Shown piece by piece: positions 3,986 through 45,264 of a DNA stretch of 64,000 bases. Source of the stretch: Dactylorhiza incarnata. Its lineage: Eukaryota > Streptophyta > Magnoliopsida > Asparagales > Orchidaceae. The notes beneath the pieces are model-generated. The model saw only the letters and a list, made by a program, of their open reading frames with translations. It had not been told where the DNA came from and searched no databases. Both the position numbers and the translations under genes were made by a program. The stretch spans positions 37,575 to 101,574 of the forward strand of contig JAWHQI010001218.1 in the NCBI GenBank assembly GCA_033032865.1, written 5' to 3'. The stretch's first letter is position 1; each line of letters begins with the position of its first letter.

Positions 3986-4060
3986 ACCCCTTATTGCAGG
4001 TGTAACATCCCAATCCTGGAGGAGCAGATATGGCTGTTGCTGATAAAAATTCTAGGCTAG

Positions 4061-6485: not shown

Positions 6486-7194
6486 TTCAATTCAGTTCTC
6501 TAATACTCTGCTTATGTCTGTGCTACTTATACTTGCAAATATATATAACCACTGCTACTTTTATGCTTACGAACATATTAGATAGTGCTATGGAAAGTGC
6601 GTGGGCACTTAAACAACCGACACATATGAACAACTACTACCTGTCACCTGCTTGTTTATTATTGCTAATATTGCAGCTCCTCTTCTTCCTTTCCGCCCGG
6701 TGCCTTGGAGTCGTCGGGGGAGCGGATGTGAAGCCACTTAGTCTTTATGACTAACGGTTGCTACGTCCCCTTTTTAGGAGCGCATCCTGGCGCGGTAGCG
6801 CAACTTGGAGCAGCAGCGCATGGCGCTGGAGACGGATAGTCCGGCCGGGACGATAGGGCAGGATACTACGATACCATCGCAGCCGTCAGTGACAGATGTG
6901 AGCGAGTTTTGTTGTAGCCCTTGGGTCCTTTCCTTTTGTTACTCTGATATTATACACTCGTTTGGTGTGTATTTGGACTGTACTTATGCGGATATATATA
7001 TCTGGTGGCTTCTTGTTGTATTTTATATGATGGGTTGGCATTGATGATATTTGTTAGCCGGCAGGATAGGCGTCTTGTGGAGGAGGCTAGCCCGTGAGCT
7101 GGCGCTTCGGCAAGGCGGCTGTCCTGGGCATAAGACTTCCCTCGGCCGTGTTTTGTGTTCCAGAGAGGGGGGGGGGGGGGGGGGGTCTTACAAA

Positions 7195-19114: not shown

Positions 19115-21729
19115 ATGGCTCTGAAAAGCTCTAAAGACCTTCTGGAGGGATATGAAATCATCAGGAATGGGTTTGCCCATGCTCAAGAAGAAATCAAGGG
19201 AGTGATTCAACTCCTAGAAGTCGAAGGTCTGGAGTTTATTATGTCTGAACCATGTGTCATTCTCAGAACTGAAGTTCTTGAATGGTTTGTCCATGCTAAG
19301 TTATCCACTTCCAAGTCATCCCTCAAATCAAAGATTGGAGAAGATAGAATTAAGATAACTCCTGCAAAGTTAAAAAAGCCTTACATCATCCATCCTGCAG
19401 TCCAAGTGAGGAGGAAGAAATCTCTGAGAAAGATAAGAAAAAGGCTCTGAAATGGACTGAATACAATGACGCCAAAACTGGATCATTAAAAAGGAAATTC
19501 TTCAACCAAAGGGGCAAACTCTTATCTGATATTGTGGGAAAAGCTATTCTTTGCAAACCTGGGTCCCATGATACAATCACACATTACATGTTTGACCTCA
19601 TGACAAGGATAATACTGAAAAGGAAAACCTCTTGGGGAGAAGTTAACGTTCAAAGAATCAAGGAATGTTTGCAGGCACCAAATTTGTGCAGAATTCTTTC
19701 CCTATACCTACTCTAAACTTACCCTGACAAGTTTGGCAAATACAAAGGAGCAAACCTCCACTATCTCAAGAGGATGGACGTCAAGACATTAGATAGTTTA
19801 CCAGGGTTCTTCCCATGAGTCGCCCACTGAGGCAAAGGGGAAAGAACCAGAGAAAGCCAAAGCAGTGCCAAGAATGGTTTTATCAATTTCTGAGTCTGAC
19901 CACTCAGATACAAATAAAGATGCTGGTGCGGATCTTGGATCACAAAGTATTCCTGATAAGGATGACTTGCCTCCTGATAGTGCCCATCCACAAGACTTGG
20001 ACATAGATACTACCCCTGGTAATTAATCCTTAATCTCCACATTACTCATAATATTATCTAACCATAGATAATCACTTAGTTAGACACTAATGACTCTTAA
20101 ACTTATGTGGACCATAGCTCCCCAAGGCCAGCTGAATGCTCCATCCGAGGGGGAGCATCAACAAGAGCCATCCCCCATGGATGGTATCAATGATCAAACT
20201 GGGTGTGAAGGAGACAAATCTGACAAGGACAAAGTTCCTTCTCCTAAGGGCTTACAAAGTAAGCTTGATACACTAATACTAGATCTTAAAAGAAGAATAT
20301 CAAATAACATTGATGACTCCCCAGCTCTTTGGGACTTACCCCAACAAGGACTATCTGGTGCCCCATCTGAGGAAGAGAAGCAACAAGAGCCAATTGCAGA
20401 TAAAGATGAAGTTCTTGGTAAGCCTTACAAACCTATCTTTAGAATTACTAAGTCATTAACTCTAACTTCAAATAATTGTCTCAGCCTTCTTGGACTCATC
20501 TGACAAAGATGCTCTCTCTGAGGGGGAGGAGAAAGATAATGTTGATGATGACATGGATGATATGGATCATGATGGAGTCCACCCTGCTCACATTGAGGAT
20601 ATAACACCTTTTGCTGAGAAGATGGATGATCCAATTCAAGTGATGCCTGCAGCTGCAGTGCAAATTGTACTTCAAGTAGTCTCTCCTCCAAGTCCACCAA
20701 GGCTCCCAGACCCCATTATCCCAGATCCACAAGCTTCCACCTCCACTTCCTCAAATGAGATCATTATAAATGCAATCCACCTCATGCTAGAGACTCATCT
20801 CACTTCCATGAAGAATTATGTAGACCAGTCAGTTAGCACAGTCAAAGCATATATTGATTAGTCCATCGTGAATGTGAAGACTGATGTAATGGCTGAGTTC
20901 AAGGAAATTAAGGAAGACACTAGATTGCTGAACAAGCAGATGACCAAATGGTTTGAACTAGCAAAAAAGACAGTAATATCTCAGAATACCATTCTTTGGT
21001 CTATGGACAAACACCTCCAGCTGTCTGAACAGGACATAACATATATCAAAAATTTTGTCAGCAAGACAGATGAAGTGATAGAAAAATCAGCCAATCACAT
21101 CCAAGAGTTTGTCTACTCAACAGCCTTGCAGTTGAATGAAGAAGCTGACAGGAACAAGGAAGAGCTGAAAGAAGATATTGCCACTGTCTTTCAATCCATT
21201 GCTGAAATAGTCACTGCTACCCAACTGAATGCTGAGGTAGTCAAACTTAAAGATAAGCTTCAAGATGATTTTGAAAATGTTTTCCAAACCCTATCTGGCA
21301 CTATAACAACAGCTAAGCAAGACCTCTATCAACAAGTGTTTGAAGAAGCCAGAAAGGGGGAGGATACAAATGCAATCATAAATTCTGACTTAACTCTTAA
21401 GGTTCTACAAGGTACAAGGCTGGCACTAAATCTTCCTCTCTTAGATGTAAATAGGGCAGAAGATTGGGATTTCCCACATCAAGAAGCAATTGCCCAGAAT
21501 GAGAGATTGAAAAAGAGAAGAGAACATGTATTGCTGACTGAAGAATACATGGCCAGGCAAAGGGATGTGCAAAATAGAGATCCTGACTATGAGTACTGGA
21601 GTGATGACTCCAAAGAAATAATACTAAATGCCTGGATAAGCCATGGTCAAATTGGAAAAGATATTGATAAGCTCTATCCATCTGAAGAGTGGATAAAACA
21701 TTTAGAGAGAAACACAAAAATAGAAAGAG
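19115..21729 (+). pseudogene. Copia-1 env-like/additional ORF, first part
   Basis: Position after pol and sequence style match the env-like or extra ORF of SIRE-type elements; its function is not established. The N-terminal piece (19115-19450, MALKSSKDLL, VLEWFVHAKLS, EDRIKITPAKL) resembles the N-terminal domain of plant 'putative retrotransposon' proteins, where a fingerprint of this form precedes a long charged region. Frameshifts break the middle (19450-20090). The open pieces 20090-20503 and 20490-20861 are acidic and Pro/Ser-rich. The last piece (20868-21729) is Lys/Glu/Gln-rich and strongly coiled-coil-like over about 180 residues. I see no signal peptide or membrane segment, so 'envelope' is a positional name only. 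Copia-2 inserted at 21730. Confidence 0.65.
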
Positions 21730-21859
21730 TGTTGGAACAACCCTATTTATGATTTGGGCTAGGATCACTATATGTTGACTAAGGACAAGTTGACCCCAAT
21801 GTATAGTTTATGGGTCAAGAGTTTTGGCTGTTAGAACTAGAAATTTCATTCAATTTCTG

Positions 21860-22220
21860 CGTTCGACGAACGACTATCTTCGTTCGACGAAAGGCTATCT
21901 GCGTTCGACGAATGATAAGCTCTATGCGTTCGACGAACAAACTTATTCTCAGCGGTCAATAAACCCGTCTCAGCGGTCGAAGAATTTGTCTAAGTGCAGC
22001 GCTCGACTAATATATTTTGCTCAAGCTCAGCGGTCGACGAAATTATCTAGGCTCAGCGGTCGACGAATACTTCCATTCGACGAACTCCAATCTGCGTTCG
22101 ACGAACACCTTCAGATCAACAAAATTAATCATTCTAGCAAGATTCAATTGAGGTTGACGAAGTAAATGTTGCGTTCGACAAAAATCTTGAGGTCGACGAT
22201 TCTGCGTTCGACGAATTTTG
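21860..22220. repeat. Copia-2 LTR palindromic motif array
   Basis: More than ten copies of TTCGACGAA or variants (TGCGTTCGACGAACG, CTTCGTTCGACGAAAG), mixed with CTCAGCGGTCGACGAA. The core matches the Gypsy-1 array. The 3' LTR copy is at 43566-43910. Confidence 0.85.
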
Positions 22221-22398
22221 TTCAGATCGAAGAATTATTATTTAAGCTCAGAAATTTCAGAAAGAATATATCATTTCATTCTCTGAACTCAGTTTGACTA
22301 ACAACAATGGCTCTTTCTGACAGATTAAGTAAGAAAATATATTTCTTTTGTTTATTCAAGTTTTAGCCATTGACCTTCCAGCCGAAAAGGACATTCCG

Positions 22399-22406
22399 TA
22401 TAAAAG
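22399..22406 (+). promoter_or_regulatory. Copia-2 5' LTR TATA box
   Basis: TATAAAAG about 180 bases downstream of the motif array; conserved in the 3' LTR at 44087-44094. Confidence 0.75.
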
Positions 22407-23154
22407 AAAAGGCTAAACGGCGCAGCAGTACTGTACTGATATCTCTTCAGTGCATGTTATTCCTTAATATAAGGATTTGCATTTAATTTCTGTCAGATTT
22501 TTCAAAAGAAAGTATGGAAGAAGACATAGCAACTTAATATACAGCAGAATATACACAAACTTACACGATAACAGATAAAGTACAGAATACTTTACAGTTT
22601 TGCTGTACAGGAAAAGTACAGAGAAAAGAATGAAAGAAAAGGAGATAAAAAGAAAAGAAGAACCAAGCACAAAATAGTTTTTCTTCTTCTTCATCTCACT
22701 CGAGCAGCAGCAACATTCAGAGAACATCTTCAACACCTCCTTTCAGTCATTTTTGCTGCAAAGATTCAGATCAAAAGAAAGAAGAAAAAGCTACGGGAAG
22801 AAAGAAGAACATCAAAAGCTTATACAGATCTTCTTCTTCCTCAAAGCAGCATTCATTTTCTGAGAACATTTGCTTTTATCTCTCAGTCATCAGCTGCAAG
22901 CACAAATCTCCAAAGAGCAACAAACAATCTGAGAAGCAGTCTTGTTTCTCTGATTTTTCAGCTACAGGAAAATTATTTCTTCAAGAAAAGGCTCCAGCCA
23001 ATCTACTGTCAAACATCTTCAATCAGACAGAGGAATTCTTTTCTACATCAAATCCACTAGAGTCTTCTCTATACATCTTGACAGAGAAGAACACCTTAAC
23101 CCCTCTCTATCCCATTCTGTACAGGGTTAATACTCCCTTCAAAATGTAACCCAC

Positions 23155-23310
23155 TGGTGGCAAGACACCTTATCAAAAAATCCTTGTGTGGTTTTTAAGC
23201 ACCTTATCAAAAGCTTATCGGTGATTTGGGCACCTGATCAAACTCCCATTGGTGTGTGGACACCTTATCAAAAATCCCTTGGTGTGAGTGCACCTTATCA
23301 AAACTCCTAG
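23155..23310 (+). repeat. CACCTTATCAAAA tandem repeat
   Basis: Five degenerate units of about 30-35 bp (CACCTTATCAAAAATCCCTT then GGTGTG). The 3' LTR copy is at about 44850-45000. The repeat is downstream of the TATA box, so it is in the transcribed part of the LTR. Confidence 0.8.
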
Positions 23311-23572
23311 TGGATTCCTAGCAAGGGTGGTAGAAGAGTAGACGTACCCAGATTTATTGGGGAACTACTATAGCTCCTTGTGTCCTCTGTGATTGTTTAT
23401 TTCTTTGTGCTATGCTGTGTGATTTTATTTATTATGTTTTTATTAATCACTCTACTTACACATATATATATAACACCATTTTTTAATTCCGCAAATAAAA
23501 CTAAGGTAAAAAGTTTTAAACTCTATTCACCCCCCTCTAGAGTTAATTTAAGATCTAACCTCCACTTTCAAT

Positions 23573-23683: not shown

Positions 23684-23825
23684 ATGGCACAAAACAAGGA
23701 GTATTCAAGCACAAGACCTCCTATGTGCAATCCCAGTAAGTTTGCACTGTGGAAAGCAAGGATTAGGTTATATATGAACTCAATTGATGAAGAAATTTTT
23801 AATGTGATTTTGACAGGGCCTCCAG
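23684..23825 (+). pseudogene. gag: Copia-2 Gag, N-terminal part (before Gypsy-2)
   Basis: The start at ATG 23684 gives MAQNKEYSSTRPPMCNPSKF followed by ALWKARIRLYM, the usual SIRE gag opening in which a substrate-like F-x-W-K/R motif begins the capsid domain. After 47 codons the reading is cut by the Gypsy-2 LTR at 23826, inside the proline codon of GPP. It continues in the same frame at 37536. Any frame reading on into 23826-23983 is LTR sequence, not gag. Confidence 0.9.
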
Positions 23826-24666
23826 TGTTTACCCGGAAAACCGCTTCTCGGGTTGGATCATTCTCGGACCGGGCGAACTGCTGGGCCAGGCCGCTGGTTT
23901 CCAGGATCAGTGGCTCTCAGTTCAGGGTAAAGCAGGCTGGGTGGTCTGATGTCATTCCGGACCGCCCCCAAGATTGGAGGTAGTCAAGAGCCAAGGCAAT
24001 AAGGCTATCCGCGGTCTCAGATAGGAAACCGTCCGGGTTGAGACATAGAAACTCAAGGTTCAAGCCCGGGGAACAAGCCGCGGTCTCAGATCGGGGACCA
24101 TCCAGGTCGCATCATGAAGATCAGCCAGGCCATGTCCAGAAGGCAGACCGCGATCTCAAGCCGGAGACCGACCGACCCGTATCATTGACTTGGCCACGGT
24201 ATCTTCAGCCTCAGGTCAGACGGGTCGGGAGGGCAAGCCGCCAAGCCGCGCGGCTTCTTTCTTTTTCTTCTTTGTGCATCCCGTCACCGCTTGCCCGTTT
24301 CGCCTGTACCCAGGCAGGTGGCTATTCTATCCCTGCCCATTCGGGCAGGCCCCCAAGCCTATAAATAGGGAGCGGCACTGTTCACAAGACACGCACACTC
24401 GAATCCAGGAGCTCGCTTGTTTGAGCTGCGGTCTCGAGTTTCCCATCTTGTGGACTGTCTGACCGGCCGGCTTCTCTTTTCTTACATTTATAACCGCTGT
24501 AACCGCCTCATTTGAATCAAAGGAAAGCCCGTCGCAGGAGTGGAATTTACCGCGGCGGGCGAAGTCCGGCCTCGACCGCTGCTAGCGGTCCAAATTCTCT
24601 AACCAAATAGTAACTGATAATCTGCAACCCTCGATTTCCTTCGGAGGCGCACTTTTGAATCGAACA
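23826..24666 (+). repeat. Gypsy-2 5' LTR (841 bp)
   Basis: Carries copies of GCGGTCTCAGAT, AGACCGCGATCTC and CCGGAGACCG (24005-24180), the inverted repeat GCCGCGCGGC (about 24244), a TATA box and the inverted-repeat-like GTCTGACCGGCCGGC near 24456. Confidence 0.92.
24360..24368 (+). promoter_or_regulatory. Gypsy-2 5' LTR TATA box
   Basis: TATAAATAG, conserved in the 3' LTR at 37224-37232. Confidence 0.8.
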
Positions 24667-24717
24667 GAAACACGCGACCTTCAGATCGCAGACTGTCAGT
24701 GAAATCTTTGGTTCAGA

Positions 24718-27700
24718 ATGTCAGACCGCCATTTCCCTCCAAGAGACCGCTCCGACCACAGCGACGATTCTTTATGGGAGGCTCTGGAGCAAACAAAGAG
24801 AGACGCCGACCAGGCCCAGAAAGCAACCGATCAGCGTCTGGACGCGATCAGTTAAGCTTTAACTCTGTTAACCGAGCGGCTAGCCCCCCAGCAGGCCGCG
24901 GTTAACCGTGCAGTAACTCCTGTTCTACCACCTCCGCCGCCATTTCCACTACCACAAGTCGCTCATTCCCAGCCACCACCAGAAGGTTCTGCGGCTCGAC
25001 TGAACTTTTATCAAGAGGCTGCGCGCTGTATGCCGGCTCGAGTCCTCGACTTCCAAGGGGTGGCTTCTCAGGTTGCCTACCAATCCTACCCGCCTGAGGT
25101 CGCCTCCTACCAATCCTACCCGGCTGGAGTCCCTGTCCGCTCCTATCAGGCGGCTTGTCCGCAAATGACCGCAGCTGAGGTAGTCGTCACTCTGCTTTCC
25201 CTCTGTACGAAGATACCGAGGAAAGTTCTCCCTTCACGGACGAGATCCGAGGAGAGCCGGCCCCAAATAACTTTCGAGAACCACGCCTGTCAACATATAA
25301 TGGGGAGTCCGATCCGTCAATTCATCTCCAAGCATTTGAATCGGCTGTTGCTCTGAGGACCATCACCGACGCAACTAAGTGTAAGCTCCTGATAACGTCC
25401 TTTGATGGACAAGCCCGAGAATTGTTTTACGGATTGCATCCTCGATCCATCAGATGTTTTGCGGAATTGCGTAGAGAATTCCTGCTTCGTTTCTCTACCT
25501 CTAAAAAGAGGAAGAATGGTCCGGCAGCCCTATTTGAGATACGGCAACAAGAAAACGAAATGTGGGCCCGTTTCGTCGACCGTTTCCAAAGGGAAATAAT
25601 GGAGGTACAGAACGTCGATCCGGAATTATACAGGGTCGCTCTGATGCACGGCCTTAGGGAGGGGCCGTTGAAATTTGAAGCTCAAATCAGAGAACCAAAG
25701 ACCTATCAAGAGATGATTAGTCTTGCTAATAAGTTTATCAGAGGGGAAAAGACTAATCCTGGTTATGTTGCCAAGTTGCTCAGCGACAATGATCAGTTTA
25801 ATTCTGCATCAACCCATCAGCCACGTTACAATCACTCATCCCAGCCTGACTTTGAACCTCGGGCTCAGAGGGGAAGAAATCTTAAGCCTAAGCAACCATT
25901 CTTTGGCCATCAACGGTTTCAAGATCAGAAACCGCCGTTGGCCATCACACCCGCTCAACCCCTTGGGGCTCCACAAGTAATGCCGGTATATCTGCCGCAA
26001 TATATCGCACAACCATCCCCTACTATTCCATCCATCCGATATGATAAATCACAGGAATCATTCACCCCTCTTAACGTCAGCATGAATGAGGTTGTTCAGA
26101 TTCTCCAAAAAAGGCCTGACTTCAAGAGACCTCCACCTTTGAAATCAGAAGTTCTCAATCGAAATCCGAACTTCTATTGTGAGTATCACAAAGAGGAAGG
26201 GCACCTGACTGAGGATTGTCGGGCCCTCCGGTGGTTGATAGAAAAACTCCTGAAAGAAGGGAAGCTCCTAGGGTTGATCAGGCAAGAAACCCCGGTTGAA
26301 CCACGAACCGAGAAGAAGAAGGAAGCAGTCGAAGTGACCTGGGAGTGTGCTGACGTAGAAGAGGCAGGTTGCTATGGGGATATACATCCCGCCACCGAAT
26401 GTATAGAAGTAAATGATGTTGGCCCCCTTGGCAACATCTATTGTATCCATGGAGGAGCAGGACCAGAATCCTCTCGGAAATCCAACATCGGGAGAGTCTC
26501 CAAGCAGGAAGTAGCAGCCGCCTCCACTTCTGCTCTAGAAAGGTCGGTTGTCACTTTCGGCCAAGAAGATCTTCCCCCAAATGCAAATCCTTTCGATGAT
26601 GCAGTAGTGATAAAGGCAGTCATCGAGAACTACACCGTACATAAAATCCTGATTGATACTGGTAGCTCGGTTAATCTCATTTTCCGCCAAACATTTGAAG
26701 CCCTTAAGACTGGAAAGTCTTTGCTCTCCACAGAAGGGCCCCTCTACGGCTTCTCAGGAGAAAAGAAAGAAGTGGAGGGGTGCGTGAAGCTTTTGGTGTC
26801 GCTGGGAGGCATAACGAAGCTGATAAACTTCGTAGTAGTGGAAGCCCCGAGCAGCTACTGTGCAATCTTCAGAAGACCAATCCTGAATGCTTACAAAGCG
26901 ATAGTATCCACTTTTCATTTGGCCTTAAAATTCGCTGTCGAGGGGCGTCAATATCGGGTTCGAAGCGATCCAAAGGTTGCTCGTGAATATTATGTGAAAA
27001 CAGTTAATATGATCACCGGGGCACCACTTCCCAAGGTTCAGGATGACATCCATGAGGTATCTAAACTCCCTGAGGAGGCCGAGGAAAGCGCAGAGCGGAA
27101 AGGGACTTATCTGGAACCTGCCCAGGAGACCCAAGAGATCCCCATTGCTGAAGGAGAAGGGAAGAAGCTGATCATCAACGCCGAGCTATTAGTAGAAGAG
27201 AAGGTTCAGTTAATCTCCTGCCTGTTGGAGAATCTGGACATCTTTGCCTGGTCAGTAGAAGATATGCCTGGAGTAGATCCAGATGTTGCGTGCCATCACC
27301 TCAACATCTCTCCTGAATTCAAGCCAGTCCAACAGAAGAAGAGGGAGGTAGCAACCAAGCTGGCGGTACCCATCAAAGAGGAAGTTGCAAAGCTTCTTAA
27401 AGCCAATTTCATTTCTGAAATCCAATACCCCACTTGGATGTCAAATGTGGTAATGGTGAAAAAATCTGGGGGAAAATGGCGCATGTGTGTAGATTTTACA
27501 AAGCTCAATAAAGCGGGCCCCAAAGATTGTTATCCCTTGCCTCAGATAGATGTTTTAGTAGATTCCGCGGTGGGATATAATTTCATGAGCTTTCTAGATG
27601 CATTTTCTGGTTACCACCAGATTAAGATGCATAAACCTGATATCCCGCATACGTCCTTCATTACCAACGACGGGTGTTATTGTTATCTTGTCATGCCTTT

Positions 27701-30326
27701 CGGGCTCAAAAATGCAGGTGCGACATATCAAAGAATGATGGACAGGGTTTTCAAAAAGCAGAAAGGAAGAAATCTTGAAGTATACGTTGATGATCTTCTT
27801 CTAAAAAGTAAAACTTTTTTAATCCATCTGAAAGACCTCGTAGAGACGTTCGCTACTCTACGGAGGTTCAAATTAAAACTAGATCCACTGAAATGTGTGT
27901 TCGGGGAAAACAAAGGGAAATTTCTTGGACATCTTCTCACCCCTGATGGCCTCGCGCCAAATCCAGATAAAGTAAAGGCCATCCTAGATATGACCCCTCC
28001 TCGTAATCAAAAAGAGGTGCAGCAACTTGGGGGGAGGTTGGAAGGACTAAGCCGGTTCATTTCCAAGTCAGGAGATAAGAGCGCTCCATTCTTCAAAACT
28101 CTCAGGGGAGGATCTAAGTTTGAATGGAATGAAGAGTGCGATAGTGCTTTCGAACAGTTGAAAAAGCAGTTAACCTCAACCCCTCTTCTCCAAAGCCCTC
28201 GCGAAGGGGAAACATTATTCTTATACTTGGGAGTGGGTCCAGATGCAATAAGCTCTGTCCTTGTTTGGGAGGAGAAAAAGAAGCAATTTCCGATATATTA
28301 CGTCAGCCACATCCTCAAAGATGCGGAAACTAGATATTCAATTCTGGAAAAATTAGCCTTGGCTTTGGTCATGTCATCGTGAAGGCTCCGCCCCTACTTT
28401 CAGGCTCATCCTATCCAGGTGGTCTCGGATCTTCCACTAAGAAGTATCCTGGAAAAGACAGATCATTCAGGTAGATTGGCCAAATGGGCGATCGAGCTCA
28501 GTGAATTCGAAATATTATACATTCCCAGAACGGCAATAAAGGCACAAGTACTGGCAGATTTCTTGGTGGACACGATGGAGTGTAATCCAGAGCGAGTAGA
28601 GGAATCTCCTTTTGCCTGGATCATTTATGTAGATGGAGCTTCAGGAAGAAACTCCGTGGGAGCCGGAGTAGTTCTTATCAGTTCAAACGCCATCAAACTT
28701 GAGCAAGCAATCAAATTCTTCTTTCCAGTGACGAACAACCAGGCTGAATACGAAGAACTTTTGGCTGGCCTAAGACTCGCAAAAGAGCTTGGGATAGAGC
28801 ATGTTCATGTAAAAACTGATTCTCTTGTAATGGCTTCACAAGTTCTAGGGAATTACAAAACAAGAGAACCGATGTTGAGAAAGTATCTATTGCTAGCTAA
28901 GGAAGAGATCGGGAAATTCAAATCCTTCATCATCGAGCACATTCCAAGGACACAAAATTAAGAGGCAGACGAGTTGTCGAAGTTTGGTCTTCCATCAGGA
29001 GGGGTGACCTCGGAACTTTTTCATCCGGCCACAGAGAACGAGGAGCTCATGCAGATCGATCAGAAACCTTCCTGGAAGGACCCTTATGAATTATTTCTGT
29101 CAAGAGGGGAGTTTCATCAATCGATCAAGGACAAAAGTAGATTCAGGAGAAAGGCGGCCTACAACTACTTAATAGCAAGAGTTTTGTATAGAAAAACTTT
29201 GATTTCTCCCTCAGCACGGTGTGTTTCAGAAGAAGAGATCCCAATCATACTTCAAGAAGTTCATTCTGGGGAATGCGGTAGCCATTCAGGGGCAAAAACC
29301 TTAGAGAAAAGGATCCTGCGGCAAGGATATTTCTGGCCAACTATGAGAAAGGATGCTGAAGCATTTGCCAAGCGCTGTGTACAATGTCAGAAATTTGCTC
29401 CTCTTCAACATCTGCATGCTCAATCGCTTAGGTCAATAGCTGCACCCTGACCCTTCGCGGTTTGGGGGATGGATCTTGTCGGACCCTTTCCAATGGCTAG
29501 CGGCCAGCGCCGCTTTATCATAGTAATGATCAACTACTTCAGTAAGTGGATTGAGGCAAAAGCATTGGCAAAAACTACTACTCAAATTATCAAAAATTTC
29601 ATCTGGGGAGAAATATTCTGCCGACACGGAATCCCGCTGGCAATTGTCACTGATAATGGACCGCAGTTCAATAATCCCGAGATGATAAACTTTTGCGATG
29701 AAGTTGGAATAGATCTTCGGTTCTCCTCAGTACATCATCCAAGGACCAATGGTCAAGTAGAAGCTGCAAACAGGCGAATTCAGCAACTCCTGATGAAAAG
29801 AGTTTTGAATCAAAAAGGAAATTGGGCAGACCAACTTCCCTCCATCCTTTGGACTCTTCGCACTACCCCATCTTCAGCTACAGGGGAGACACCATTCAAA
29901 TTATCTCATGGCTCGGAGGCTGTTGTTCCTGTAGAGTTTGAGGTGGTCACTCCAAGAGTTGTCTATGCAAAAGAGGGAGGAGAAGCATGGGTAGAATACA
30001 ACGATGAGGCCATCAGGTATAGTCTGGATCTGATCGAAGAGCTTCAGGACGAGGCAACAATCCGACAGGAAGAAGTTAAGAGGAGGATGGCAAAATATTT
30101 TGACAAAAATATCAGGGTAAAACAGTTTGCAGTTGGGGATTTGGTGTTAAAAAAGGTAGATGCTGCGGCCAGATCTGGTAATGTTGGAAAGCTGAATCCC
30201 AACTGGGCAGGGCCTTTTATTATCAAAGAGGTATTAAAGAATGGGGCCTACCGTCTCCAAACCAGCGAAGGAGAAGACATCTCACACACCTGGAGCGGTG
30301 ACGATCTTAAACGATTTTATCCTTAA
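24718..30326 (+). pseudogene. gag-pol: Gypsy-2 Gag-Pol polyprotein, four stops and one frameshift
   Basis: Gag starts at ATG 24718 (MSDRHFPPRD). A TAA at 24853-24855 and a frameshift near 25180-25205 break it; one frame then runs from about 25200 to 30326. Gag core: 25260-25760. Tat-type knuckle: CEYH-KEEGH-LTED-C near 26178. Protease: DTGSS at 26655. RT: MCVDFTKLN, YVDD at 27783-27794. First RNase H: to about 28580, with TGA at 28380. Second, archaeal-type RNase H: YVDGASG ... NNQAEYEELL, 28610-28980, with TAA at 28959. Integrase: HHCC, TGA at 29448, then Asp (29472), Asp (29652) and Glu (29760), giving D,D-35-E. The last four stops each fit a single transition (CAA to TAA, CGA to TGA or TGG to TGA). 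Catalytic residues are otherwise kept. Confidence 0.9.
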
Positions 30327-30689
30327 AATATCTCTTTTATTCTTTACATTTCTTGATATTAAATAAAAGGCCCTATACTGACACTTCTCCTTGTCCAAAT
30401 GGTGCTCTGCATTATTAATATATATGTATATACGTATCTCACTCCCTGAACCTCTGAGATATCGCCAAATTCTGCTCGAACCCCCTCGGATTGTAGTCAT
30501 AGCGTAAAACCCACCAAGACCATGTGATGCGGGGAGTTTTCGCACACATGTAGTGGTAGCTTGCCAATTCCGCTGCGGTGGTCTTCAGAACTTTGGATCC
30601 CGGTCGATATCTGACACACCCCTGCATCAAGGGAGGTCTAGGTGATTGTCAGCTCTATCGTACCCCGAAAGGGATATAGTTACAGCTTT
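30327..30689. other. Gypsy-2 post-pol spacer
   Basis: AT-rich, non-coding. Nothing recognised apart from the beginning of the region that holds the hairpin repeats. Confidence 0.5.
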
Positions 30690-31077
30690 GATGATCTTTC
30701 TGAGGAAAGCAATGTTCGCCGCCGAGGCCCACCTGCCCAACTGATCATCATAGCCTGTGACCATCGAATACTCTTAGGAACTCTCGAAACGGAGCCTAGT
30801 AGGGCCCACAACTAAGTTGATCTCTCTGAGGAAAGCAATGTTCGCCGCCGAGGCCCACCTGCCCAATTGATCAACTCGTCTTGTAACCCTAGGCAAGAGA
30901 GCAGATGAGTCGCTTACAGCTCTTATGACCACTTGAGGAAAGCAATGTTCGCCGCCGAGGCCCACCTGCCCACTTGGTCATCTGAGTCTGTACATATTTT
31001 TTCTTTTTCCCTACAGCTCTTTTGACCACTTGAGGAAAGCAATGTTCGCCGCCAAGGCCCACCTGCCCATTTGGTCA
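30690..31077. repeat. Four hairpin repeats with conserved core and covarying stems
   Basis: Core TGAGGAAAGCAATGTTCGCC ... GAGGCCCACCTGCCCA, with one change in copy 4. Flanking arms: GATGATC/GATCATC (30690-30749), GTTGATC/GATCAAC (30816-30875), ATGACCA/TGGTCAT (30925-30981), TGACCA/TGGTCA (31023-31077). Each pair is perfectly complementary although the arms differ between copies. Confidence 0.88.
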
Positions 31078-31239
31078 TCTGAGCCTGTAGATTATTCATT
31101 TTTTCCTACAGGAAGACATTCACCTCTTGTGGTTTCTTGTCCAAACCATTCGAGGAAAATATAATCAAAACAGGTGCAGGTATTCGTCTACCCTAGTTAT
31201 GATATTAAGGCCGGACGGTCTGAATTTTCAAACCGAGCG

Positions 31240-31640
31240 GTCTGATTGAATATAAGTTTGGATATTTCTGGATATAATTATATGATTGCCCGAGTTGCAT
31301 TCTGACCGAGCAGGCTTATCTATCTTTTACTGAGTTAGATTTTTCTGGATCTGAAAATATTGCCCGGGTTGGATTCTAACCAGGCGGGTTTATCCATCTT
31401 TTATAAGTTGGATATTTCTGGAGCTAATTATATGATTGCCCGAGTTGCATTCTAACCGGGCGGGTTTTATCTATCTCTCCATTTTATTAAATTAGATATT
31501 TCTTGAGCTGCATATATTGCCCGGGTTATACTCTAACCAGGCGAGTACTATCTATCTTTTATAATTAATTCAACTGGATATTCTTTATGTGATCGCCCGG
31601 ATTATGCTTCTAACCGATCGGCGGGCTGAGCCATTTCTTA
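31240..31640. repeat. Degenerate tandem repeat, about 80-bp unit
   Basis: About five units with TGGATATTTCTGGA, then GATTGCCCGAGTTGCATTCT and AACCGGGCGGGTT and TTATCTATCTTTTA. The GCCCGGGTT and AACC..GGGCGGG parts are partly self-complementary. Confidence 0.75.
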
Positions 31641-32113
31641 GTAAAAAGTTATCTCTAGATACAGTTGATTACTCGCCAGGGGTTGAATTCAAAACCACTC
31701 AAAGTTGTTATTCATTATCTATATCAGCAAGGATAAGGTATCTCTGACTGACAAAAAACCGCCCGGTCTGAATTGAAGTCGCACGAGTCTATCCGTTATG
31801 GATCATATTATCGGATATCGGATATCTGGAGGTCTAAATGAGTAACCGCACGGGATGAATATAGATCGTCCAAAGATCATCAAAATTATCACTTATACTC
31901 AGATCAGGATAACCGCACGGCTAGACCATAAAAAGCAAAAGGTAAAAAGAAAGAAAAGAGACAAGACATCAGCCACAAGTAAGTAACAATAGAAGGACAA
32001 TTAAACAGGTAAATTTTCTTTTCATTCTTCAAAATGTGTTAACAAAATATTATCCGCCCGGCTAACAAAAAGAGACCGGCGGTTACACAAAAAATAAAAT
32101 CAAGACAAGGGCA
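31641..32113. other. Gypsy-2 spacer
   Basis: Non-coding, with scattered ACCGCCCGGTCT- and CCGCACGG-type motifs like those in the LTR. Downstream end of the antisense gene next to it. Confidence 0.5.
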
Positions 32114-32596
32114 TTAGTCTGCCGACTTCTTCTTCTTCTTGACAGGAGAACTCGAGTCCACACCATCAACATCAACGTCGGGCGAATAACCTTCACTTGA
32201 CGTGGAAGAAGAATCCGATGAATCACTACCACTAGACCGCCCGGTCTTACTAGCGGAGCCAGTTGTTCCAAAGGACAAGCTGTCCTCATCATCATCATCA
32301 TCCGCGTCGACCTCCTCAGCGGCCTCACCACTTCCATCACCTCCTCGATGAAGTACAATCTCCCTGCCCGCATCGGCTTCAGCCTCCTCGCCCACCTTGG
32401 CTTTTCCTTTTTGCCTTCGGCTGATCTCATCAAGTTGGACCTTCAAAGCAGGGAAGAGGTCGGAGAAAGTAGTACCCCCGAATCCTTCGCACAGACCGCC
32501 CCAGTCTTCCATAAGACCCAAAGCTTTGTTGATCCCTTGGGCCACATGAGGCAACACCTCGTCTTGGAAGGCCGGGTTGGTCATCTCATATTGTTT

Positions 32597-32670
32597 CTGC
32601 AAGAAAGGAAAAGTAAATTAGGCCGCTCGGTCTCAACAAAATAAGCCGCGTCATCGTTTGTCAAACTCAC
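32597..32670 (-). other. Intron 2 of antisense gene B (74 nt)
   Basis: Minus strand GTGGCG|GTGAGTTTG ... TTCTTGCAG|AAACAATATG. It joins complete codons and keeps the frame. Confidence 0.8.
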
Positions 32671-33182
32671 CGCCACGACTTCTTGAAGCCGCGCATTCTC
32701 TTCTTGAACCCGCACATTCTCCGCGACCTACTCCTCGTACTTCTTCTCCAGAAATTTCTGGACAGAAACCAGCCGCCTGTACGACAAGGCCATGAAGTGA
32801 TTGGCTGCGAACCCCCATGCGCCGGCTTGCGCCGCTAGCCGGGGAAGCTCTTCTTCCGGAGTTTTCTTCAGCTTCTTTAAAGTCTTTCGACCGTACATAA
32901 CGGCCCCGGCGGCTAGCGCATGGCAGTTAATCTTGTCACTTCCCCATGGAGGAAGTGCAGTGGATACCCGGATGCGGCTCCCATCCCTATGCCAGAGGAC
33001 ACTCGGGTTGCCCTGCAGGTCGGGCGGGTTTCCGCAGGAACGAAGAAGTTCGTATTCATCAGGAGAAGCCGGGCCCTCTTCTTCTGATGATGGCGACCTA
33101 TTTCGCCGCTGCCTTTTTTCTCTCTGGGTCAAAACCGGGCCGGCCGGAGTGACCGGCTTGTTCGCAGGGACGATGTGGGCAG

Positions 33183-33253
33183 CTGCAAGGGAAAATCAGG
33201 AGTTTAAATAAAGCAGTCGCGCGGTCATATACAAGCGGTCTAGAGGAACTTAC
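33183..33253 (-). other. Intron 1 of antisense gene B (71 nt)
   Basis: Minus strand GAGCATA|GTAAGTTCC ... CCCTTGCAG|CTGCCCAC. It joins the two flanking open frames within one codon. Confidence 0.8.
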
Positions 33254-34489
33254 TATGCTCGGGGAGGACGTCCTCTAGCTCTGAGAACAGCGGGATGTAA
33301 TGATTGATGTCCAACCGCTCGTTCTCAAGAAACGAGAAGGTGTCCATCTCGATCTTTCCAACCTGGGGGATTTGGAAAGCCTCTTCCCCCCAAACTTGCG
33401 GGTTGGTTTGCAACAGCCCGAAGTTGCCTTCGAGCATTACGAACCGCTCCGACCAGTCCGAGACCTGGTTCGCCAGGTTAACGATCTTCAGTCCGTGGCA
33501 GCCAAAGTAGAGGTGCCCTCTGAAAGTTGAAGTCCCCACGTCGGAGACAGCCCTGCACCGAGAAAAATTTCCTAAACAGATCAAGGGAAAATCTGGTTCG
33601 CTCGAACCGCAGGTATGAAATAAAACTATATATAGAAGCGATGGAGTTCGGCGGAAGCTGGCCGGGTACAACCCCGTAATGGTCAAAAATGGCTATGACT
33701 TCAAGTGGAAGCGGAAATTTGAAGCCATATTCAAAGTGGTCGACCGGAACGGCTATTTGGTGCGGATTGGAAGAGTTGATCCGCTCATCGCGCAAAGGAA
33801 GCCGCGCGAGCAGATTAGAGCAGATTACTCCCTACCATGTGTTTTGCAACGAATTCGTCTAGTTCGCTCTGAGTAAGACGGCACTCTGGATGGTCCGCCG
33901 AGTGAAAAGCCAAGGCCGCGTCTGCTCGGACGGCCTTAACCTTAACAGGCCGCTGCGACTTGTTCTTAGATCGCGCCATTTGAAATCGTGAAAATGACTT
34001 CGAAAAAGTCCCTACTTATAGATTTTGACGATCTGCAAATAGTAAAAATATATCGCGGCTATACATTCTAACCGTGCGGCCAACGGCCTGCACGGTCAGA
34101 TTTATCAGAAAAACAAAAAGAACCAAAGACATTCAGGAAATTAGGAGCAAGCATACATCACAGATCGCGCAACCTGTAATCAGCTCGGATAAAACACAGA
34201 AGATCTAAACAGAACACAAACATAGCGGCAAAACAAGAACCCGCACGGGTTATTCAAATAAAAGACAAAGTAAAAAGAAGCATTGTCTAAACAGAGGCCG
34301 AAATCAACAGGCCGCATTCATAATACAAAATTGTTCTAAGAAGCCGTTCACGGCTGGCGGTGTTCTGGGGAGACATCCTCTCTATGCAGTCGCGCGACCT
34401 GGTCGCTGGTGGTGTTCAGAAGGGAGTAAATCTGGCTGGTATGATAATGGATGTGGTTGATTGTGCTATGAAGCCGCCCGGCATCCCTT

Positions 34490-36500
34490 TCAACCCGCGT
34501 AGCGGCGATCATACGGGGGGGTTGCGGTGGCTTCATCAATCATTGGATCAGCCGCCCGAACCGGGGGAGGATTTGAGCCCGCCCCAACAGTTGGGCGGCT
34601 AGCAACCTGCATCCCATCATTCATACTTCGCCGGCCTGAAGCGACTTCCCTAGTTAACCGCAGGAATTTATCCTGGTAATATCTCGAGTCATCCTCGAAC
34701 TTAGCAGATTCTCTCTTCTCCTTCTCGAGCTGAGCGGTCAGAGTAGCGACTTGCGCCACCTTAGCTCTCTTCTCGGCCTCCACTACAGCTCGCGTAGCCT
34801 CCACCGCAGCTCGCGCGGCCTCCAGCTGAATCTCCAGGCCGTTCTCCTTTTCTGTCCTGGAATTCCCGTCGATCTCCATCTGCGCCTTCAGCGCCTCTTC
34901 AGCCTTTTTTCTTGCCATTCGCTCGGCCTCCAAAGCGGTCCGAGTGGCGGCCTCCCGATCTTCCACCTCCTTCAAACAGACCCTCAGGTTTGCTAGATCT
35001 TCCTCTAGATGCCCAAACAGTTGCGGCCCTTCTCGCGAAGTCGTTACACAGGTTGATATCGGGGGAACTAATGGAGGCAGGCTGGCCTCAAGGTCGCCCG
35101 ACTTCGCAATCTGATCCTCGCTATCTGCAAGAAGCCGCGCGGTTATAAAAAAGCAAGAGCATGCAACGCCATATACATACAAAAATGGACATAAATATAA
35201 GATCAATGCCTGGGCACACAGGCCGCTTAGATTGTTCCGGGTCCATCCTCCGTCGTTGCTCACGCCAGAGTCTCTCCGTACTCTGCCTAGCGGAAGAGGA
35301 CTAGGCCGCTAAGGGGAAAAAGCTCGGCGGTGGGTTCAGTAATTTATTACGATGAGGCCGCGGAATGAAGAAGCGGATAGCTTTATAATCCGTGGGGCGC
35401 TTACCTGGCGTAAAAGGATCAGGCCGCAGCAGCTTGTTAAAAGCCCGTTCCACCCCTTCCTTCTTCACCATCATTATCTCCTCCCCGGTCATCACCGGGG
35501 GAACCTCCTCCCGCACTTTCAACACTTCTCCGAGTTCCCTCGCTTTCTCTTCGACCTCCAAGGCGGTCCGGGCAGCAGCTTCTCGCTCTTCGGCCTCCGT
35601 CTGAGCAGTCTCCTCAGGCTGGGCTATGTTGTCTGTAACAGGGGCGGTTCGCTTTGAAGCCATCGAGCTGTCGAGAAGCTTATCTCGCCCCATCAGCTCA
35701 TCCATATCCTGAAAGATCCCATTAAGTGATAAGCTACTCGCCGAGTCCGGAAACAGGCCGCCCGATTTCGCATCAGGGGTAGCCGGCGAGTCATTTACCT
35801 TAGCAGATGGGGGAGTCGCTAGGCCGAGCTCCTCTTTTAGTCGCGGATTGGTCTGGAGGCGGGACTCAGCCGGTTTCTTAAAAGCCGCCCTTTCCTTGGA
35901 GGCCAGCCTCTTCACCTTCTTGGTTATCCGGTCGGTCACTGACCCAGACTTTTTTCTCTTCTTCTCTTTCTTACCCGGAGCTGGACTAATTTCTTTGGAG
36001 GGGCTGGGATAATCGTCCACGGATAGAGGGGTACTCAGGTCGCCCTGCCTCGGAGAGCTAACCGCCTCCTCCCCCAAATCCTTGACCAACAAATGAGGAT
36101 TCTCGGATGGGGTGATTTCCATGCCAAATGAGTCGGACCCGCCGACTTTCTTTAAAGGGCTGCCAGAGCCAACTTTTCTAGAAGGGGCGGCCTCCCCTTT
36201 GTTCAGCGGGCTGACGGCCTGTTGGCCGAGATCTCGGGGAGGAATCAGTGAGTCGCTGGGAGGAGGCCCTGAATGCTCTGCTGCAGGCTCTACAGGAGTC
36301 TTGCAGATTGTTGAGTCCACAGCGGCCTTGAAACTATCCGCCGCGGTTTTCTCAGACCGCTCCCTCTTTTTCCGGTCTTTCCGGTTCTGCTTTTCCTTGT
36401 CCTTCCTCAATTTCTTCGTTGATTTGCGCCTCTTTCCTTCCTCCTTTTTCTGATCGCGGACAGGGACCACGCGGTCTAACATGGTGTCTAGGAAGTCCAT
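34490..36500 (-). CDS. Gypsy-2 antisense gene A, basic/coiled-coil protein, two exons
   Basis: I do not recognise a domain. ATG 36500-36498 (MDFLDTMLDRVVPVRDQKKE) opens a Lys/Arg-rich segment (repeated KKR, RKD, KKRERSEK; likely nuclear), then Ser/Pro/Asp-rich sequence, then an Ala/Glu-rich coiled coil (TAQTEAEEREAAARTALEVE). Exon 1 ends at 35405. Removing 35125-35404 (GTAAGC ... TTGCAG) joins ...TPG to ..SEDQIAKSG in frame. Exon 2 carries a second coiled coil with the same seed (EDREAATRTALEAERMARKKAE), so exons 1 and 2 share a duplicated coiled-coil element. It ends at 34490. No stop or frameshift is seen in the spliced frame of about 580 codons. It lies head-to-tail upstream of antisense gene B and is presumably transcribed from the 3' LTR side. 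Confidence 0.7.
35125..35404 (-). other. Intron of antisense gene A (280 nt)
   Basis: Minus strand CGCCAG|GTAAGCGCC ... GGCTTCTTGCAG|ATAGCGAGG. The codon split by the intron is rejoined in frame. The acceptor follows CGCGCGGCTTC, a copy of the family's GC motif. Confidence 0.8.
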
Positions 36501-36689
36501 CGTTGAAGAGTTACCGGTCTTAAAAACTCTAACCACAAATAGCGAGTAATATCCCGTGATTTCAGAAAAAAACTCTGCAGAATGAGTTCTCTGGCTCTCT
36601 TATAGAATTCAGGACAAGTCGGAAGTGGTCTCCCGGCTAAAGCTAATATTTTCGAAATCCTCTTGGGATTTGAAAATATGCGGGGATTA

Positions 36690-37530
36690 TGTTTACCCGG
36701 AAAACTGCTTCTCGGGTTGGATCATTCTCGGACCGGGCGAACTGCTGGGCCAGGCCGCTGGTTTCCAGGATCAGTGGCTCTCAGTTCAGGGTAAAGCAGG
36801 CTGGGTGGTCTGATGTCATTTTGGACCGCCCCCAAGATTGGAGGTAGTCAAGAGCCAAGGCAATAAGGCTATCCGCGGTCTCAGATAGGAGACCGTCCGG
36901 GTTGAGACATAGAAACTCAAGGTTCAAGCCCGGGGAACAAGCCGCGGTCTCAGATCGGGGACCATCCAGGTCGCATCATGAAGATCAGCCAGGCCATGTC
37001 CAGAAGGCGGACCGCGATCTCAAGCCGGAGACCGACCGATCCGTATCATTGACTTGGCCACGGTATCTTCAGCCTCAGGTCAGAAGGGTCGGGAGGGCAA
37101 GCCGCCAAGCCGCGCGGCTTCTTTCTTTTTCTTCTTTGTGCATCCCGTCACCGCCTGCCCGTTTCGCCTGTACTCGGGCAGGTGGTTATTCTATCCCTGC
37201 CCATTCGGGCAGACCCCCGAGCCTATAAATAGGGGGAGGCACTGTTCACAAGACACGCACACTCGAATCCAGGAGCTCGCTTGTTTGAGCTGCGGTCTCG
37301 AGTTTCCCGTCTTGCGGACTGTCTGACCGGCCGGCTTCTCTTTTCTTACATTTATAACCGCTGTAACCGCCTCATTTGAATCAAAGGAAAGCCCGTCGCA
37401 GGAGTGGCATTTGCCGCGGCGGGCGAAGTCCGGCCTCGACCGCTGCTAGCGGTCCGAATTCTCTAACCAAATAGTAACTGATAATCCGCAACCCTCGATT
37501 TCCTTCGGAGGCGCACTTTTGAATCGAACA
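36690..37530 (+). repeat. Gypsy-2 3' LTR (841 bp)
   Basis: Same length and ends as 23826-24666; TATA box at 37224-37232. The bases before it (ATATGCGGGGATTA) are the only candidate polypurine tract, and a weak one. Target copy TCCAG follows at 37531. Confidence 0.92.
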
Positions 37531-39422
37531 TCCAGCACCTACAACATCAACAAGTACTGATGCAACAACAAAAAACACTGTTGTTCCACCTCCCGAATGG
37601 ACTGAAGCTCAGAAAAAGAAAAGAAGTGTTGATGTAAAAGCCATGAATATTCTGGCTCAAACAATGTCTGATGACATATTTCAGAGAGTGGTGGATTGCA
37701 CCTCAGCTAGAGAGATATGGACCTCTCTCAACAATATGGTTGCAGGCTCTGCTGATGAAAGAAAGGACATAAGATCTCACTTGATCTCTCTGTATGAGAA
37801 CTTCAAGAATGGTGAAGAAGAATCAGTTGCAGATATGTACACTAGATTAAGTGTAATCATAAGTGAACTCGGAACACTGGACAAGGAAATCTCATTAACT
37901 AAAATCAATGACAAAATCCTAATGTGCTTCCCCAGCACTTGGGACTCTAGGATCTGGCCTATCAAGGAAGCCAGAAGCCTTAATGAGATAACTACTGAGA
38001 CACTGCTAGGAAAGCTCAAATCCTATGAACAACTCATCAAGACAAGGGAAGCTGAACAAGTGAGCACCTCCTCTTCAACAAAGAAGGACAGGAACATTGC
38101 CTTCAAGCTACAGAAGAAGAAGGAAAGACTCCTGACAATGAGGAATTGATGAGTCTGTTTGCCAAAATATTCTACAAGATGGCAAGAAAAGACTTCAGGA
38201 AAAAGTCATCCAGAAGCTATGAAAAGCCAAGGTATGACAAAAACAATTCTAAAGAAATTATATGTTTTGGTTGCAGGAAACCAGGACACATTGCACCAGA
38301 CTGTCCAGAAAACCAGAAGAAAGAAAAGAAAAAGAACAAAGAAGAGAAAAGAAACTCCAGCAAGTCTTCCTCCCACAAACACAAGAAGAAAGGAAGAGGA
38401 TTTGTAGCAGAATCTTGGAGTGAAACTGAATCATAATCATCATCCAACTCATCAGATGATGAAGAAGAAACAAAAGAAAATGATCAGTGTCTGATGGCAA
38501 TTTATGACTCAAGCAGTGAGTCAGCAGATGCTTCTTCATCCAGTGATGATGAAGACAATGAAGAAGAGAAGAACTTCTGCATGATGGCAATCAATGCCTC
38601 AGCCAACAATTCTGATGAAGAAAGATCAGAATCAGAAGCAGAAACTGATGCAGATCAGGTAATATCTACCTTTGATTTTACTTCAGTTGAATTCAAAGCT
38701 GAATTCAAAGTCCTTTGCTCAGACTTAATCAAATCTGAGAAAGAAATAATCTCACTCTGACTTAAGATAGCTGAAATGAATAATATAAGTGAAGAAAATG
38801 TAAATCTTAAGAAAGATTTGGCTGCCTCCAGTGAACACATTGTTCTCATTGAGAACAAGTTGTATGAAGCCAAGAAGTTTGAAGAGTCCCTCATTGGGAG
38901 AAGCATCAAACTGATGGACATTACAAGCACAGTAAAGGCTAGACTTAATAGCAAACTGGGCTTGGGTGCTTCATCAAGTGAGCCACCTCTAATTAAGAAG
39001 AACATACTCTCTACACCTATAAAATTCATCTCTGCTAAGAGCAAAGAGGTTGTGGGAGCAAATAAAAACATTTCAAGTAAGACTGTCGAGAATAGCAGAA
39101 TTCAGCAGAATTTGTCGAACGGAGCTCGCCAAAATATAGCCACTTCGTCGAACGGAGCTCGACAAACTCTGAAGACAGATTTTCAATATAGTCATTTTAT
39201 GAATGGGGCTCGACGAGCTCAGCTAAATTCATCGAACAGAAACTATACAGCAAATCTGAACAATTCTCATTCTTCACATTCTATCAATCCTTTCACTGAA
39301 TGAATAATACCTCCAAGGAGATATCATCCAAGGACAAACATGAAATGTCTTTTATTTCAGATTTTTGTGGAAATACAAAAAGCAAGGTAATCTGGGTCAA
39401 GAACAAATAGATTGTTTTTCTG
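37531..39422 (+). pseudogene. gag: Copia-2 Gag, main part (after Gypsy-2)
   Basis: Continues the frame of 23684-23825. The UBN2-type capsid core (MNILAQTMSDDIFQRVVDCT, REIWTSL, RSHLISLYENFKNGEEES) runs to about 38140. A frameshift there leads to a CCHC knuckle (CFGCRKPGHIAPDC, 38270-38311) and a Lys-rich stretch. TAA at 38434-38436, then acidic Ser/Asp/Glu sequence with CLMA and CMMA. A TGA at about 38758 and another at 39301 interrupt the coiled-coil and linker part. The linker at 39083-39238 encodes NLSNGARQ / SSNGARQT and carries the LTR motif TCGTCGAACGGAGCTCGAC. The second zinc knuckle seen in related gags is missing. The gag end is recognisable as VIWVKNK-stop near 39390-39411. Confidence 0.85.
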
Positions 39423-42617: not shown

Positions 42618-43437
42618 AAAATAAAATTTCTATTTACCCCTCATTCCTTATCATATCAAACTATGTGTTTTTTATTATATAAATTCCTACAGAATTGTTT
42701 CTCTTTCTAGTTCCCATTAGCATTTGATCTCTAATTTATTGTGCAGGAACAACAGCAATATAAATCTTGCATCCTTCCCTACCTCCATCAAATTTCCCTT
42801 CTTCAAGGGGCCTAGCTTTAGGCCTTTCCTGAAACTAGGTAGGGGAAGAAGTTTGTATGAACAAGCTCCATTTGATGCACTGTTTTGCTCAGGGGGAGTG
42901 TTCTATAAACTAGGCAAGGAGAGAAAGCTGAAGAACCTCCAGAACTCAGGGGGAGACACTCTCAGGGGGAGTTGCTGTATGAAGAAGCTTGGTAAAGCTT
43001 ACAGCAGTTTGCTGATTACAGTTTTCTGTTTCAGAAATATTCAGATAAAGTTCAGTTCAAGTTCAGATGCAGATACAGATCAGAAGAAGTATTTTGATAT
43101 AGCAAAATTCAGTATCAGTCATTGCTACAGCTCAGCTTATCAGAAATTCAGAAATCAATTAAATATACAGATCAGAATTCAGAATAATACAGATCAGATA
43201 AAATCAGAATTTCAGAATTCAGAAGCAGCAGTATTCCGAAAATTCAAGGTTCTAATTGTATTTTCATTTCTGTTTTTATTCAAATGTATTTTCAAAACTC
43301 ATAGTACTTTTTACTTCATATCTGATAAAATATTTAAATAATATCAGATATATTCATGCTCTGTTGTTTTTGATGTTTTAGTATTAGTTTATTTTCATTT
43401 TTTGTCAAATAGTGTCCTAACCCAAATAGGGGGAGAT
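42618..43437 (+). other. Copia-2 3' untranslated region with repeated polypurine tracts
   Basis: CAGGGGGAG occurs at about 42891, 42948 and 42963, and AATAGGGGGAGAT lies against the LTR at 43425-43437, the expected polypurine tract for plus-strand priming. The 205-codon open frame here (42724-43341) has no recognisable domain and low-complexity composition, so I treat it as chance. Confidence 0.75.
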
Positions 43438-45259: not shown

Positions 45260-45264
45260 AAGAG

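Follow-up and report, generated by a model that had tools for sequence, protein, structure and literature searches.

A four-hairpin array with covarying stems and a nearly invariant internal loop in a Retand/Tat-type retrotransposon of Dactylorhiza incarnata: a candidate cis-acting RNA element

Analysis of a 64,000-nucleotide stretch of the Dactylorhiza incarnata genome (hereafter the window) revealed four units of about 81 nt, at 30680-31090, each of which can fold into a hairpin whose stem covaries while its inner sequence hardly changes. The units lie between the pol stop (30326) of a retrotransposon and its antisense open reading frames (32114-36599), one of which encodes a TRP28 domain. 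Both the foldable hairpin structure of the units and the slower evolution of their stems relative to the surrounding DNA, which points to selection on the structure, are well supported by comparison of genomic copies. We infer the strand and the function from these comparisons, and tentatively favor, a little short of calling it probable, the reading of the four units as repeats of a single cis-acting RNA element under selection, probably acting in the sense genomic RNA in export or packaging.

The first 20 nt of the core occur in four exact copies in the window (starting at 30701, 30827, 30934, and 31031), compared with a mean of 0.01 in shuffled sequences, and the units are spaced by 126, 107, and 97 bases. 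Only one of 39 columns varies in the 39-nt core, while 22 of 42 vary in the flanks (Fisher 2.4e-7). All four units are read here on the + strand. In hairpin 1 (30680-30760), the basal stem arms at 30680-30697 and 30742-30760 enclose a core (30701-30739) whose internal-loop halves, 30701-30714 and 30730-30739, lie on either side of an apical stem formed by GCC (30718-30720) and GGC (30726-30728). Hairpin 2 (30806-30886; core 30827-30865) is partly decayed in the window copy. Hairpin 3 (30914-30993; core 30934-30972) and hairpin 4 (31011-31090; core 31031-31069) are 97-bp tandem partners; hairpin 4 carries A in place of G in its apical loop. Pyrimidine-rich tracts ending in CTACAG precede and follow hairpin 4 (30997-31016 and 31092-31111); we take them to resemble plant splice acceptors.

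The basal stem comprises 18 candidate pairs, of which mostly 14-16 are formed, with a constant one-base bulge and a single register in all copies. The arms named in a preliminary description of this DNA (GATGATC/GATCATC, GTTGATC/GATCAAC, ATGACCA/TGGTCAT, and TGACCA/TGGTCA) are present as written, inside this longer stem. An outer stem (ACAR/YTGT, the bulge, then CT/AG) extends every hairpin past the limits given there, with the CT/AG pairs partly lost in window hairpin 2. Between CT/AG and the pairs already described, some types have mismatches over one to three positions. The internal loop is asymmetric and nearly invariant, with TGAGGAAAGCAATG on one side and CACCTGCCCA on the other, and leads into a short apical stem-loop. 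The "fixed core" of the preliminary description is thus correct in that the inner sequence is nearly fixed, but it is not a single loop: it consists of an internal loop and an apical helix, the latter swapped in one subfamily.

Tandem Repeats Finder reported no array at 30680-31090. Searching the window to E 10 with a covariance model of the hairpin gave 60 matches, with no convincing fifth copy among them; apart from the four units, the highest score was 16.7 bits. When we searched for pairing between the core and the rest of the element, the best 14 sites were the core's own complements only. The preliminary description also held that hairpins in an unrelated Gypsy element (Gypsy-1) follow the same design. 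That proposal is not supported: those sequences are near-palindromes of about 31 nt that reach at most 16.7 bits under the hairpin model, compared with 97-105 for the units described here. The near-palindromes, of the GCTCCCGTTCG...CGAACGGGGAGC kind, form arrays at 4105-4544 and 12374-12813, within 3.2-kb direct repeats of another element.

The host is a complete 13.7-kb Gypsy element (23826-37530) that we assign to the Retand/Tat type on the basis of its Pfam domains and best protein matches. Its 5′ LTR (TG...CA; 23826-24666, + strand) pairs with the 3′ LTR (36690-37530, + strand) at 97.5% identity over 841 bp, and the target duplication TCCAG stands at both element ends (23821-23825 and 37531-37535). 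On the + strand, gag-pol occupies a single frame (25179-30326; Pfam gag, RT, RNase H, and integrase) with three in-frame stops, because of which this copy looks broken; its LTRs have diverged by 2.5%. Among the 7989 candidates sharing most words that were scored, proteins of the orchid Platanthera zijinensis matched the first gag-pol ORF (25179-28382) best, at 65% identity. On the − strand, the ORF at 33478-33831 contains the Transposase_28/TRP28 domain (PF04195 at 33831-33481; E 2.3e-9, 37.8 bits vs. a cut-off of 26.2), and the ORF list adds antisense frames at 35301-36599, 34490-35308, 32728-33195, and 32114-32617. For the ORF at 35301-36599, scoring of 7995 candidates gave no relative at E ≤ 0.001. 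NCBIfam gave no match near cut-off for the first gag-pol ORF or the five antisense ORFs, and IMG/VR held no loci related to the first gag-pol ORF. The POL-3′LTR region (6,363 bp), the LTR (841 bp), and the internal region (12,023 bp) all fall within the Retand/Tat ranges of 2,933-6,566, 315-1,194, and 7,380-12,869 bp given in passages of PMC11963269, where the TRP28 domain is reported for 97% of Retand clusters. Just past the pol stop, between the convergent gene sets, AATAAA occurs on both strands (30336-30367; + at 30362, − at 30336-30341). A pair of 1.85-kb direct repeats with 95% identity (21726-23571 and 43434-45260) flanks the whole element, which therefore looks nested in another one.

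The window's four copies by themselves give moderate support for a structure. Their perfect arm runs of 8, 8, 7, and 6 bp have chances per site in the element of 0.005, 0.005, 0.014, and 0.043, respectively, and the arm duplex energies of hairpins 1-4 were matched at 43, 270, 88, and 61 of 5000 random places in the window. Own arms ranked first among the 24 arm permutations by total energy, and the 5′ arm of hairpin 3 found a slightly better partner in the 3′ arm of hairpin 4 than in its own. On the sense strand, 81.9% of the 72 cells were paired, compared with 25-42% when one side was slid. Column shuffles matched the covariation score in 36 of 500 trials for the + strand and four of 500 for the − strand, and equaled the count of both-sided pairs in 80 and 22 trials of 500, respectively. 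In a neutral simulation, pairing and double changes were jointly reached with a probability of 5.5e-4. Folding z-scores against shuffled sequences were −2.6, −0.71, −2.9, and −3.85 for hairpins 1-4 in the sense direction and −1.7, −1.2, −2.7, and −2.6 in the antisense direction. Folding of the whole region was unremarkable (z −1.8 sense, −1.1 antisense), and several LTR windows fold more strongly than the hairpins. The strongest local + strand folds found in the element belong to the 3′ LTR, at 37112-37223 (z −4.7 to −5.7).

Decisive support came from other genome copies, beyond the four in the window. A search of the plant's own genome (3.27 Gb in 3184 contigs) for the first 22 core bases, allowing up to three mismatches, returned 19,061 matches (9635 + 9426), while the reversed control returned 1 + 1. 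From 78 loci we kept 57 distinct arrays after removing repeated ones; these 57 are a small, non-random sample, taken from the first contigs of the listing and the best DNA matches. Counting the swapped hairpins described below, 50 of the 57 arrays carry four hairpins, five carry three, one carries five, and one carries a single hairpin; with swapped hairpins left out, there are 35 four-unit and 20 three-unit arrays. The collection excluded units with more than five core-half mismatches or lying too near a locus end, and swapped hairpin 1 is therefore absent from the resulting 112 distinct core-bearing hairpins. At least 14 of the 18 pairs are formed in 104 of these hairpins and at least 13 in 108, with 8-10 in the other four, although taking the better of two gap placements for each hairpin favors pairing slightly. 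The flanks of further copies, which the preliminary description had singled out as the place where its proposal could fail, are therefore paired in nearly all of these hairpins. Also considered was the possibility that the arms are duplicated insertion-target sequence, which does not fit because target duplications are direct and the arms are inverted.

The stems differ among copies in ways that keep them paired. Pair types over the 112 hairpins include C-G in 66 and T-A in 45, A-T in 74 and T-A in 24, C-G in 65 and G-C in 22, G-C in 73 and A-T in 25, and T-A in 70, T-G in 26, and C-G in 12. At the bulge, 62 hairpins have C and 50 have T, and the only commonly variable base of the core sits in the apical loop. 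The two mismatches of window hairpin 2, 30812/30879 and 30814/30877, each occur in three of the 57 arrays, the majority having C-G (51 of 57) and G-C (52 of 57), and hairpin 2 of the majority type gives folding z-scores of −2.9 and −3.2. In nine representative hairpins, hand-chosen as types, 85.8% of 162 cells are paired, compared with 24-42% when slid, and seven pairs show changes on both sides. None of 500 shuffles matched the covariation score, the paired cells, or the both-sided cells of these nine, while the bare number of both-sided pairs was matched by 40 of 500 and the pair types by 483 of 500. Four modal stems, likewise hand-chosen, have 61 of 72 cells paired and six double-change pairs. 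In 40,000 runs of a neutral simulation started with every pair of the ancestor intact, values as high as those of the modal stems arose with P = 0.0125 for paired cells and 0.0007 for double changes, and no run reached both. When arms were exchanged among the four modal types, 12-16 of the 18 pairs still formed, compared with 15-16 with own arms, and two types paired as well or better with the arm of another; exchanged arms still pair well because eight of the 18 pairs are invariant in the nine types. All of this covariation comes from one family and few lineages. The co-varying, interchangeable stems proposed from the window alone are nonetheless borne out by the genome copies.

One of two subfamilies provides two natural exchanges within the hairpins. 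Pair 30921/30985 of hairpin 3 sits in a three-pair helix between the bulge and an internal loop, and over the 57 arrays it is T-A in 35, as in the window, C-G in 18, T-G in two, C-A in none, and gapped in two. The compensatory C-G replaces T-A in the subfamily with T in the apical loop (core-T). In hairpin 1 of the same subfamily, the apical part is swapped (TTC-GCC-GCCGA-GGC-C to TC-GGT-ATA-GCC-CCCGC-GGC-ATA-ACC-A), while the stem and both internal-loop halves are kept. The swapped part is longer and again has a GCC/GGC stem with a five-base loop. Swapped hairpin 1 occurs in 17 of the 57 arrays and folds with z −3.4. Given that the apical stem-loop was swapped with the loop kept, the core can be described as an internal loop that hardly varies, set between helices that can each be exchanged.

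We compared the rate of change in 40 and 16 arrays of the two subfamilies, counting as near-fixed those differences present at more than 70% in both and using sites with at least eight and six letters. Near-fixed differences number seven at 172 stem sites, nine at 156 core sites, and 19 at 82 spacer sites, compared with 50 of 342 in the upstream non-coding DNA and 62 of 300 downstream (stems vs. spacers, p = 8e-6; hairpins vs. surroundings, p = 1.3e-9). An exact match to the core was the route to many of the arrays, which inflates core conservation in these figures; the contrast between stems and spacers is unaffected by this. Two of the seven stem differences are the compensatory pair, 30886 makes a pair, 31084 is the bulge, 30994 and 31010 lie outside the 18 pairs, and only 30750, in hairpin 1, breaks one. 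The nine core differences consist of seven in the hairpin 1 apical swap and two at the apical-loop site, one of which had itself defined the subfamilies. Our comparison thus indicates that the stems evolve more slowly than the surrounding DNA and argues well for selection on the structure.

To a lesser degree, the design may extend beyond this family. A Pfam search for TRP28 gave 28,242 first-look candidates, of which 150 were scored, and 30 loci fell into five groups apart from that of the window; the stretch 3′ of TRP28 was read for one member of each. One of these, the sister Tat family L112 (G000:C2850:129500-132500; pol end included), has an integrase 71% identical to that of the window element and, at 540-1080, three diverged hairpin-like repeats of about 70 nt in the same place between pol and TRP28. 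The middle repeat folds strongly in the sense direction (z −4.75), while the other two have no clear fold. Downstream of TRP28, L115 (1-822) and L116 (542-881) contain ordinary 88-bp and 34-bp tandem arrays. The core is absent from all of L082-L116, with a best local score of 15 of 39. None of L113-L116 has an integrase match, so these stretches may miss the homologous region. The hairpin-array design may therefore be present in one sister, in the form of weaker hairpin-like repeats. Tat elements as a whole look extremely abundant in this genome, judging from the core matches and the TRP28 candidates. Directly downstream of the hairpins in the window lies a second array (31251-31617 by Tandem Repeats Finder), with 74-81 bp repeats that contain short GC-rich inverted repeats; taken as 31276-31630, it has 85% of its 40 cells paired, with no covariation. 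An LTR motif that seemed to recur in it was rejected, as its scores of 20 and 19 stayed below the background maximum of 25.

The combination of a nearly frozen loop with exchangeable stems, repeated in several copies and located 3′ of pol, is as expected for a protein-binding RNA element. Its internal loop would be a putative binding site for the Gag of the element, for a product of the antisense genes, or for a host export factor, and the multiple copies could add avidity. The RNA concerned would be the sense, full-length one, in which the array directly follows pol on the 3′ side, and the likeliest role would be in its packaging or its export from the nucleus. The array's position between the last sense ORF and the 3′ LTR, together with its covariation, marks it as a structured-RNA candidate, with RNA as the putative acting form. 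In the window, pair counts lean toward the antisense strand, whereas folding and the few single-change states of the subfamily pair lean toward the sense strand. A rather unlikely alternative is selection on the structure in antisense RNA, as a 3′-UTR stability, localization, or 3′-end element of the TRP28 transcript, or for mutual control of convergent transcripts. In the window copies, the − strand is 83.3% paired with six double-change pairs and paired cells matched by four of 500 shuffles, compared with 81.9%, five, and 35 of 500 on the + strand, and the − strand AATAAA at 30336-30341 lies beyond the hairpins. Part of this advantage, however, is due to the decayed hairpin 2 of the window copy. 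Moreover, single-change states of 30921/30985 are T.G, a sense-strand wobble found twice, and C.A in none of the 57 arrays; hairpins 1, 3, and 4 have the stronger fold z in the sense direction; and the last antisense ORF stop is 1.0 kb away from the hairpins.

Readings without an RNA structure fare less well. That the units are a repeated operator or cruciform in DNA, bound by the element's own TRP28 protein and regulating transcription, is improbable in our view. The motif is fixed and repeated, the same element has a TRP28 ORF, and TRP28 is predicted to bind DNA in passages of PMC11963269, but a linear site has no need of complementary arms 45-50 nt apart or of a conserved bulge, and it would not call for one apical inverted repeat to be replaced by another. 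We give just as small a chance to a functionless by-product of tandem duplication, in which a hypervariable Retand 3′ array has its arms kept complementary by template switching of reverse transcriptase. Among the Retand elements with recent activity examined in PMC11963269, about one in two carries tandem arrays in this region, and hairpins 3 and 4 are themselves tandem duplicates of 97 bp. Template switching, however, should erase the bulge and the mismatches, yet these are kept, even beside compensatory pair 9-74, and the nearly frozen loop, the slower change of stems than of spacers, and the presence of four hairpins in 50 of 57 arrays would be left unexplained. That the GC-rich core is a captured coding fragment, either a repeated peptide-coding piece or part of a host gene, is very improbable: third positions are GC-rich in one core frame, but the spacings of 126, 107, and 97 place the copies in more than one frame, no synonymous pattern is seen, and the apical part is replaceable.

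If the units do act as a cis-acting RNA element, some hypervariable 3′ arrays of Tat elements, perhaps including that of L112, would not be junk but RNA recognition arrays in the course of evolving, and the repeat-rich stretch that separates pol from the 3′ LTR would be explained in part. The roughly 19,000 core copies, the natural stem swaps, and the nearly frozen loop also amount to a ready experiment, with the loop as bait and the swapped stems as controls. We consider it possible, though on balance doubtful, that these units represent the first multi-copy RNA recognition element acting in cis in a plant LTR retrotransposon, with exchangeable stems presenting a fixed internal loop that an element-encoded or host protein reads so that genomic RNA is exported or packaged. 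Within the literature searched, which was largely open-access and took in few of the earlier studies of 3′ tandem repeats in plant retrotransposons, we found no such packaging or export element for plant LTR retrotransposons, and the core letters were absent. Rfam 15 (4227 models) gave no match in the window at gathering score and none with E up to 5 in 30500-31250; exact core patterns had no match in IMG/VR; and three matches of a core 18-mer in GTDB genomes have neighboring bases unlike the core.

The parallel with export and packaging elements of animal retroelements rests on place and anatomy, and is to be read as a suggestion. CTEs lie near the 3′ end and have conserved internal loops between helices. 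The MPMV/SRV CTE and the mouse IAP/MusD RTE/MTE are structured RNAs that serve nuclear exit of unspliced or full-length RNA, as described in parts of two papers (PMC12786077; PMC3856414); our units were compared with them in sequence through Rfam only, which gave no match, and export is putative here. Plants are said in the same 2025 review to use TREX and not the NXF1/TAP receptor of CTEs, which counts against a CTE-like export reading, and its relevant section states that RNA export of LTR retrotransposons has had no direct study in plants (PMC12786077). The DR elements of Rous sarcoma virus offer a likeness in being repeated, about 115 nt long, and placed near the 3′ end like the hairpin array, with effects on cytoplasmic unspliced RNA and packaging reported in passages of PMC3856414; they differ in flanking src in a bird retrovirus. 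The MER11-derived CTE of SERV-K1 is likewise a non-coding block before the 3′ LTR and a demonstrated transport element, but it is a block of about 750 bp acquired via recombination, and a repeated hairpin unit is absent from its description in the portions of PMC11379458 that deal with it. Closest in lineage and region are the arrays in the POL-3′LTR region of Retand elements, whose repeated units also adjoin antisense TRP28 genes; they are presented in passages of PMC11963269 as family-specific tandem repeats of unknown function, and its main text never uses the terms hairpin, inverted repeat, or secondary structure. Repeat arrays in this region are thus a known kind, and what would be new is a structured RNA array: unlike those repeats, the units described here are spaced, usually four in number, and built of covarying stems around a nearly frozen internal loop.
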